From Thermodesulfobacterium thermophilum DSM 1276 (lineage in GTDB: Bacteria > Desulfobacterota > Thermodesulfobacteria > Thermodesulfobacteriales > Thermodesulfobacteriaceae), in NCBI RefSeq assembly GCF_000421605.1, contig NZ_ATXI01000001.1, forward strand, positions 62,001 to 126,000: a DNA stretch of 64,000 bases. The letters run 5' to 3'. A model generated the notes under the pieces. The model saw only the letters and a list, made by a program, of their open reading frames with translations, made no database searches and was not told the origin of the DNA. The position numbers were made by a program, and so were the translations under genes. Shown here piece by piece: positions 24,205-26,131 of the stretch. Each line of letters starts with the position of its first letter. The stretch's first letter is position 1.

Positions 24205-24328
24205 TCTTTTAGGTAAGGGTAAATGCCGCCTGCTGGGGGAAAACCCTTACCTGAATAAAAGGCGGGATACAAATACCCCCAGTCCAAGAGGTAAACTCTT
24301 ACCTCTTGGTATAAAAAGGGAAAGAACC
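24205..24328 (+). ncRNA. Candidate structured cis-regulatory RNA leader
   Basis: The stretch before the condensing-enzyme gene holds four helices seen directly as inverted repeats. A: 24211-24220 with 24243-24252 (10 bp). B: 24226-24231 with 24260-24265 (6 bp). C: 24233-24239 with 24276-24282 (7 bp). D: 24284-24294 with 24299-24309 (11 bp, 4-base loop). A, B and C are interlocked (order A B C A' B' C'), which means pseudoknots. AGGTAA and TTACCT each occur twice (in A and D), so alternative pairings exist, and the A' strand CCCTT could also pair with AAGGG of the ribosome binding site at 24316-24320. No U-tract follows D, so control of translation is more likely than termination. I recognise no known riboswitch class. 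Confidence 0.6.
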
Positions 24329-26131
24329 ATGCTAAAATTAAAACCTCGCAAAGATATCTATACTTTAAAAGATGTAGAGACACCTAATCTTTTTAAAGAA
24401 TTTTTTCCTTACATAGAACCACCAAGAATTTTCTTTGACGGAAAATACATACCCCCTCAACCTGCTAAAAATTTTTACATCACAGACACCACCTTTAGAG
24501 ATGGGCAACAAGCCAGAGTTCCTTACACTCCAGACCAAATTGAAACTCTTTATAAGTTTTTACACAAACTTAGTGGGCCTAAAGGGATAATAAGGAAAAC
24601 TGAATTTTTTCTTTATACCGCAAAAGATCGAGAGGCTTTAGAAAGATGTTTAGCCTTAGGGTATCAATATCCTGAAATTACAGGCTGGATAAGGGCTAAC
24701 AAAAACGACCTAAAATTAGTAAAAGAGGCTGGACTTAAAGAAACAGGTATCCTTACCTCCTGTTCTGACTATCATATCTTTTTAAAACTCAAAAAAACAA
24801 GAAAACAGGCTTTAGATGATTATTTAGCTATCGTAAAAGAAGCCCTTTCGTTAGGAATTCGACCAAGGTGTCATTTTGAAGACATAACCAGGGCTGATAT
24901 TTATGGGTTTGTGATACCCTTTGCCATAGAGCTTATGAAACTTAGAGAAGAAAGTGGTATAGACGTTAAAATCAGACTTTGTGATACCTTAGGATTGGGT
25001 GTGCCTTATTCTGAGGCAGCTCTTCCTGTAAGTGTACCTAAGCTTATCAGGGCTTTGATAGAAGAAGCTGGGGTTCCTGAAGAACTTCTTGAGTGGCATG
25101 GCCATAACGACTTCTATAAAGGGGTAATAAATGCAACAGTTGCCTGGCTTTACGGATGCACCTATGTTAACACTTCCCTTCTTGGTATAGGGGAACGCAC
25201 AGGTAACACCCCTCTTGAGGCGATGGTGTTTGAATATATTGCTTTAAAGGGTACAGCTGATGGTATGGATGTTTCTGTCATAACTGATATCGTAAATTAC
25301 TATAAAACCGAACTTCATGAAAAAATACCTCCCAGACAGCCTTTGGTGGGAGAAGAATTTAACGCTACCAAAGCAGGAATCCACATAGATGGTTTGATAA
25401 AAAATGAAGAAATTTACAATTCTTTTGATACCCTCCGTGTATTAAAAAGACCTATACAGATCATCATCACTGATAAAAGTGGAACCGCTGGAATTGCCTA
25501 TTGGATTAACATGCACTTTGGGCTTAAAGGAGAAAAACAGATTGATAAAAGACATCCAGGGGTGGCTAAAATCTACAAAAAAATCATCGAAGAATATGAA
25601 AAAGGAAGAGTTACCCCTATTTCTAACGAGGAAATGTTGACTTACACCAAAAAATATCTCCCTGAACTCTTTGTATCTGAGCTTGATCATCTAAGGGACT
25701 ATGTCATAAAACTTATGTCTCATTACATCGAAGACCTCTCTCAAGAAAAAGAAATGTCTACCCTTAAAGCAACCAAAATAAGGCCTGTGCTCAAAAAATT
25801 TTTGGAAGAACATCCATACGTTCAATTTATTTACATAGTTGACGCAGAGGGGAAACCCGTGGTGGGGTTGACCAACGATATCGAATACCTCCACAAGTTC
25901 GAAGAACTTCTTAAAACAGAAACTTTTGAAAACAGAGAGTGGTTTAAGGTGCCGATGAAGACAGGTAAAACCTATACTTCTAAGTTTTATACTTCTAGAA
26001 TTACAGGTAATCTTTGTATCACTCTTTCTATTCCTATAAGAAATAAATACGAAGAAATAATAGGAATATTAGGGATGGATATAAAGTTCGAAGATGTGGT
26101 GAAGATGGAAAACGGTTCCTATGAAGTTTAA
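24329..26131 (+). CDS. Re-citrate synthase-like HMGL-family enzyme with C-terminal Cache-type domain
   Basis: A 600-residue protein. Residues about 48-440 form an HMGL-like TIM barrel of the isopropylmalate/homocitrate synthase superfamily: DTTFRDGQQ (53-61) gives the catalytic Arg-Asp, and WHGHND (256-261) the metal-binding HxH. Segments such as SCSDYHIFLKLKKTR and CHFEDITRADIYGF resemble what I recall of Re-citrate synthases, which form citrate from acetyl-CoA and oxaloacetate; homocitrate or isopropylmalate synthase remains possible. Residues about 490-595 look like a Cache/PDC ligand-binding domain (FIYIVDAEGKPVVGLTND, ENREWFKVPMKTGKTYTSKF, ITLSIPIRN). There is no signal peptide or membrane helix, so the domain would be cytoplasmic. 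It overlaps tolB by 11 bases. Confidence 0.75.
   Translation: MLKLKPRKDIYTLKDVETPNLFKEFFPYIEPPRIFFDGKYIPPQPAKNFYITDTTFRDGQQARVPYTPDQIETLYKFLHKLSGPKGIIRKTEFFLYTAKDREALERCLALGYQYPEITGWIRANKNDLKLVKEAGLKETGILTSCSDYHIFLKLKKTRKQALDDYLAIVKEALSLGIRPRCHFEDITRADIYGFVIPFAIELMKLREESGIDVKIRLCDTLGLGVPYSEAALPVSVPKLIRALIEEAGVPEELLEWHGHNDFYKGVINATVAWLYGCTYVNTSLLGIGERTGNTPLEAMVFEYIALKGTADGMDVSVITDIVNYYKTELHEKIPPRQPLVGEEFNATKAGIHIDGLIKNEEIYNSFDTLRVLKRPIQIIITDKSGTAGIAYWINMHFGLKGEKQIDKRHPGVAKIYKKIIEEYEKGRVTPISNEEMLTYTKKYLPELFVSELDHLRDYVIKLMSHYIEDLSQEKEMSTLKATKIRPVLKKFLEEHPYVQFIYIVDAEGKPVVGLTNDIEYLHKFEELLKTETFENREWFKVPMKTGKTYTSKFYTSRITGNLCITLSIPIRNKYEEIIGILGMDIKFEDVVKMENGSYEV

Follow-up and report, generated by a model that had tools for sequence, protein, structure and literature searches.

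An interlocked RNA leader in Thermodesulfobacterium thermophilum is probably the solo right end of an IS607-family TnpB transposon

The structured leader of a condensing-enzyme gene in Thermodesulfobacterium thermophilum DSM 1276 is, with a probability that we put at roughly 0.8, the solo right-end RNA (reRNA or omegaRNA scaffold) of an IS607-family transposon with a TIGR01765-type TnpB, a relic that persists as a structured leader and does not occlude the Shine-Dalgarno (SD) sequence. It lies in a window of 64,000 nucleotides (NZ_ATXI01000001.1, positions 62,001 to 126,000), the whole stretch of DNA that was analysed and to which all coordinates below refer. An earlier note on this DNA had described the leader as a plausible riboswitch or protein-binding RNA. 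The protein-binding half of that proposal points the right way, the ancestral partner being very probably TnpB, while the metabolite-switch half is not supported.

Results

Architecture of the leader

The elements of the leader and the gene behind it are as follows, a prime marking the 3' strand of a helix.

24211..24220, + strand: helix A, 5' strand AGGTAAGGGT; covariation at all 9 modelled pairs (24 copies)
24226..24230, + strand: helix B, 5' strand CCGCC, inside the loop of A; invariant save one compensatory change (L159)
24233..24239, + strand: helix C, 5' strand CTGGGGG, inside the loop of A; covaries
24243..24252, + strand: helix A, 3' strand ACCCTTACCT
24261..24265, + strand: helix B, 3' strand GGCGG
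24266..24275, + strand: GATACAAATA, conserved single-stranded stretch between B' and C' (alignments A2 and A3)
24276..24282, + strand: helix C, 3' strand CCCCCAG
24284..24309, + strand: hairpin D, CCAAGAGGTAA-ACTC-TTACCTCTTGG, with strands 24284-24294 and 24299-24309; 8 of 8 modelled pairs covary
24310..24328, + strand: right-end/SD segment TATAAAAAGGGAAAGAACC
24329..26131, + strand: downstream gene, an HMGL-like (DRE-TIM) acyl-CoA condensing enzyme of the homocitrate/isopropylmalate/Re-citrate synthase group with a C-terminal Cache domain

The strand order A B C A' B' C' D D' had been read from the window sequence in the earlier note, and every strand is found where it was placed, within a base; D is indeed a perfect hairpin there. 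The conserved part of helix B comprises five base pairs (CCGCC/GGCGG), to which the window copy adds a T-A pair at 24231-24260. Its helix C is one G-C pair longer than that of two relatives (G012 and G015), the G and the C having been gained or lost together. Within the segment that follows D, the SD-like AAGGGAAAG stays unpaired, and the GGG at 24318-24320 marks the place where intact elements end in ...CCAGG. The folding energy of the 146-nt leader is -49.2 kcal/mol, compared with -34.2 +/- 3.65 kcal/mol for dinucleotide shuffles (z -4.1), a figure in which only A and D are counted, since the folding program cannot show the pseudoknotted B and C. In Rfam, neither the gathering thresholds nor E-values up to 10 gave a relevant match, and no riboswitch or RAGATH model was matched.

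The downstream enzyme carries a sensor-type Cache domain (dCache_1/PDC, residues about 469-590) at the site of the allosteric domain of isopropylmalate synthases, and its full length is kept in most of the window's family. On a condensing enzyme this domain is possibly an unusual allosteric module.

Comparative support for the interlocked fold

The copies first matched by BLASTN have a common plan: stem A is variable and holds AAATACCGCC-W-GCTGGGG in its loop; there follow A', GGCGG, an A-rich run with ACAAATA at its end, CCCCAG and a hairpin D that also varies. When the full structure, including B and C, was applied to 24 real homologous copies, 95.6% of pairs were standard, compared with 70.6% for shuffled sequences and at most 51.8% for slid partners, and covariation reached 0.69 (0.20 for shuffles, at most 0.19 for slid partners). 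Changes on both sides were found in every pair of A (9/9) and of D (8/8) and in all but one of C (5/6), with B invariant. A further 97 copies kept 96.8% of pairs and supplied the single double change in B, TCGCC/GGCGA (L159).

These counts have to be read with the alignments in mind. The covariance model R1 consists of helices A and D only and was built from sequences with hand-shortened loops, because MAFFT misaligned helix A; pairs were then counted on real sequences aligned by R1 and a second model, R2. The alignments are therefore biased towards the modelled pairs A and D, and not towards B and C, whose support is not built in because they are absent from the alignment models. Three mutually crossing helices (an ABCABC topology) are thus well supported, and the earlier view that A, B and C interlock and cannot be nested is confirmed by comparison: in homologues the fold is conserved and covaries.

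Nearly all of 30 genomes examined from the window's family have the downstream gene, while the leader occurs only in four closely related species, those of the window's own genome (G000) and of G009, G012 and G015; in the other congeners this gene is preceded by an ordinary promoter and a ribosome-binding site of the GGAGG type. The window copy is solo, lacking tnpA, tnpB and a left end, and keeps all four helices. G000 encodes one TnpB of the family and the other three carriers of the same leader none. This family-only comparison had suggested a leader private to four species, a reading overturned by weak BLASTN matches that revealed a wider family. A search with R1 placed the element in 20/395 genomes of the window's phylum, six of these matches being weak and the E-values rough owing to a short calibration.

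The RNA marks the right end of TnpB elements

The BLASTN comparison, run on 148 genomes of the window's phylum, gave weak aligned matches at other loci, one of them in the window's own genome. This second copy (L101/L109) stands directly behind a TnpB (TIGR01765, E 1.6e-20; TIGR01766, E 1e-16) and an IS607 TnpA (NF033518, E 1e-51), and it forms the right end of this IS607-family transposon, whose insertion point falls exactly within the SD of hisI. The empty hisI site is preserved in G012 as AAGGAGG|TAGTAG-ATG and in G009 with one base different (AGGGAGG), and the filled site in G000 reads AAGGAGG|left end, continues to the end of the element at GTAACCAGG (ACCAGG) and then to TAGTAGATG. Comparison of the two indicates that the element entered the GG of the hisI SD and that its own CCAGG now occupies the SD position.

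The same RNA was found in 13/249 genomes from the phylum of a Clostridia genome, with up to 17 copies each; many of these lie behind a TnpB of ~500 aa (at -72 to -76 nt) and behind the tag TCTTGGGGCAGGGGCTAT. Where elements are intact, with a serine-recombinase TnpA and a TnpB, it takes their right end, on the same strand and just 3' of tnpB. Intact elements sit at a GG dinucleotide beside an AG-rich motif: GGAGG precedes the left end in 7/7 elements of G598, and GGAGG with a left-end match was seen for 27/33 tnpB-linked copies, whereas a left-end match was seen in 2/61 solos. The right-end position, together with the hisI insertion and its empty site, makes it very likely that the fold is a TnpB guide-RNA scaffold. 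That the RNA is bound by its TnpB we infer from this position and from published IS607 systems. The GGAGG left flanks, taken with published target-adjacent motifs, fit an element aimed at SD sequences, and insertion at their GG makes the RNA a sense-strand leader, which in nearly all copies stands 10-25 nt before a start codon. We also considered a free-standing regulatory motif with a chance TnpB neighbour; this was dropped in view of the repeated TnpB linkage, the GGAGG left flanks and the empty hisI site.

Two further loci in G065 (L253 and L254; C4:82045-83601 and C2:127615-129159) encode intact-looking TnpBs that are 45-47% identical and end in GTAACCAGG with a D-like hairpin. Neither has the AAATACCGCC core or such an RNA alongside, and they may represent a diverged guide-RNA type in a sister element.

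Census and genomic position of the copies

Over the window's phylum and the phylum of the Clostridia genome we counted 116 copies, comprising 42 tnpB-linked, 13 at contig edges with the tag and 61 solo. A downstream ORF starts +5 to +32 nt after D in 103/116 copies (56/61 solos), and in a strict gene-start test 88/116 copies (76%) qualified, against 102/2320 random positions (4.4%), gene starts being inferred from ORFs throughout. The spacing from D to the start holds at about 16 nt. Some apparent exceptions conform as well: selD (L207/L221) has a GTG at about +17 when read by eye, the ORF called by the program starting later.

The genes behind solos, named by reading their translations, include ribH, phosphomannomutase (pmm), lysA, metG, an AMMECR1-like gene, threonine aldolase, yjbQ, radA and selD, among others; the genes downstream of copies share no metabolite or pathway. 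Solos have lost their left ends and their upstream tag is decaying, with A to D retained. No copies were found in viral contigs by pattern scan or in plasmids by BLAST, and the Chloroflexota-type genomes gave one marginal match in 201. An exact scan of genome contigs with a 17-base pattern returned 39 loci in unrelated organisms, which were taken as chance.

Some copies depart from the plan or hint at later movement. Two orthologous copies before a P1-peptidase-like gene (L232 and L240) have lost D and gained TAAGGAG in its place, with A, B and C kept. L153 and L240 are solos with left-end-like sequence upstream (at -113 and -145, respectively) and are possibly miniature non-autonomous elements. 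Certain solos within one genome (L128/L141; L122/L140/L142/L143; L121/L138) resemble one another more than they do solos of other genomes, suggesting spread within the genome, although neither G132 nor G100 now yields a cognate TnpB.

Retention of the fold without TnpB

A TnpB of the family is missing from 16 solo-bearing genomes (G009, G012, G015, G017, G019, G251, G365, G053, G090, G100, G132, G133, G177, G381, G483 and G525). In 12/16 of these solo-only genomes no TnpB domain of any kind was detected (TIGR01766, E 0.001; 15 matches in the control G598), and the 12 include the single-contig genomes G009 and G015, which carry the window's leader. G132 and G133 do encode TnpB-like proteins, but these are not accompanied by such an RNA.

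In genomes without a cognate TnpB, 450/470 pairs of the solos stand (95.7%). Both-sides changes separate orthologous solo copies before ribH, pmm and lysA, part of the excess of double changes possibly coming from separate insertions at the same gene (lysA, one AMMECR1-like copy). In 18/19 comparisons of orthologous copies, similarity is higher in the core than in the 100 nt before it. Between the window and G015, the 'double changes' in helix A are an artefact of register, the real differences being the paired indel in helix C and changes in D. Taken together, the compared sequences argue for retention of the fold without TnpB, including in genomes that lack any TnpB domain. Some solos have lost D (L232 and L240) or pairs of A, so the constraint is not absolute.

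Discussion

Origin and possible role of the leader

The main reading implies a simple history for the window copy. In an ancestor an element would have inserted in the SD of the condensing-enzyme gene and later decayed to its right end, with the pseudoknotted RNA staying as the 5' end of the mRNA. A function in the host has to be compatible with unrelated genes, be independent of TnpB and still allow translation. The simplest role that we infer for the leader is that of a stable 5' structure standing between upstream sequence and an SD that stays exposed, at a distance of about 16 nt from the start codon. Acting in cis without TnpB, such a structure would expose the replacement SD (24316-24324), insulate it from upstream sequence and shield the 5' end of the mRNA; a ligand switch would be unnecessary.

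A more ambitious version holds that a guide-RNA scaffold was domesticated many times as a cis mRNA leader, selected for its interlocked fold in TnpB-free genomes and possibly recognised by a host factor as a regulatory or mRNA-stabilising device, its spread to many unrelated genes following from an element that targets SD sequences. We regard this as a tentative proposal that has somewhat less than even odds.

Alternative readings

The main rival is that solos are dead remnants under no selection, SD insertions being tolerated and decaying slowly. The graded decay of the left end and of the tag upstream of A would suit it, as would the loss of D in L232/L240. However, the fold holds across genera with both-sides changes (before pmm, in three genera) where the adjoining 100 nt are 45-54% identical, and the constant spacing between D and the start speaks against it too. 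We consider this explanation unlikely, although it deserves more weight than the others below.

Solos might also be live trans-acting guide RNAs, with which a TnpB, or a dead TnpB of the TldR kind, would use the ribosome-binding site or start codon as guide and either cut insertion-free alleles or regulate the gene. Intact elements do put the guide exactly over the start region, one TnpB is still encoded in G000, and published IS607 TnpBs with another reRNA class (RAGATH-18) require AGGAG or GAGGG beside the target (PMC11061315). Against this stand the 12 genomes without a TnpB domain, two carriers of the window's leader among them, and the TnpB-like proteins of G132 and G133, which lie apart from any such RNA. 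In genomes that lack TnpB, a role depending on TnpB or TldR is unlikely, and we regard the reading as improbable overall.

The riboswitch proposed in the earlier note, in which metabolite binding would make A and D exchange strands and so hide or free the ribosome-binding site of the citrate-synthase-like gene, had in its favour a complex conserved pseudoknot directly before an enzyme gene, with the SD adjoining D. The motifs behind it are all present: AGGTAA and TTACCT occur twice each, CCCTT lies at 24244-24248 and AAGGG at 24316-24320. The pairing that it needs is not a property of the family, however, as just 3/111 distinct copies (two from the window lineage and a third from elsewhere) have complementarity of at least 6 nt between the A 5' strand and the D 3' strand, and even the close relative G012 has lost it. 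Pairing of A' with the bases before the start codon, which was to block translation, is found in 23/111 within copies and 15% between different copies, and so is not clearly commoner than expected from unrelated pairs. A ligand of the citrate or acetyl-CoA type is unlikely because the same RNA precedes dozens of unrelated genes and most congeners have no leader on this gene. With the RNA family shown to be a transposon end, a riboswitch seems very improbable. That AGGTAA/TTACCT are common to A (24211-24216) and D (24289-24294) sets the window lineage apart from nearly all other copies and may reflect chance or local copying.

Equally remote is transcription attenuation by a terminator that came from an insertion sequence and was exapted for regulation at the 5' end. 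This reading has a precedent (PMC2965389) and a strong hairpin D to recommend it, but in the window (TATAAAAAGGG), as in the other copies that were read, D lacks a trailing run of U, and a terminator scan of the + strand gave nothing.

Relation to known systems

Reading the leader as a solo TnpB guide-RNA scaffold brings it close to several described systems. RAGATH-18, the guide RNA of ISFba1, likewise belongs to an IS607 TnpA/TnpB element as a structured right-end RNA with pseudoknots, its AGGAG target-adjacent motif matches the GGAGG left flank found here, and about 36% of RAGATH-18 RNAs are not adjacent to a TnpB. It differs in being an Rfam family with E-loop and kink-turn features, in its scaffold of 187 nt (about 100 nt of covarying fold here) and in TnpBs that average 390 aa (about 500 here); the sections of that paper on which these comparisons draw do not mention solos that serve as conserved leaders of genes (PMC11061315). 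The reRNA of the IS607 element ISXfa1 resembles ours in its GG-dinucleotide crossover, its GGG target-adjacent motif, its extension past the transposon end and its conserved pseudoknot, but it is another RNA, and the excerpts of its report that we drew upon do not describe solo leaders (PMC10711439).

The nearest idea that we found is that of mobile attenuators (Naville and Gautheret 2010, PMC2965389), 3' ends of insertion sequences that stay behind ahead of unrelated genes and may have been exapted; these are intrinsic terminators at near-random sites, whereas the present elements insert at the SD and their RNA has no terminator. TldR guide RNAs also show parts of TnpB systems exapted for the control of host or phage genes (PMC13418256), but TldR is a protein that uses a guide in trans to act on DNA, whereas the present RNA would act in cis and most host genomes are without a TnpB-like protein. 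In the open-access literature, the coverage of which is incomplete, we found no description of this RNA, of SD-landing TnpB elements or of solo guide-RNA leaders. It is apparently a new reRNA class with solo, retained leaders.

To the TnpB family, which stands behind Cas12, the finding adds an undescribed-looking class of guide RNA, absent from Rfam and of ABCABC topology. Its elements land precisely in ribosome-binding sites, and the guide RNA thereby becomes the leader of host genes. Met alone, one such leader would look like a riboswitch candidate. Dozens of structured leaders before unrelated genes, several of them conserved at orthologous genes after loss of the nuclease, offer a testable case of guide-RNA exaptation.
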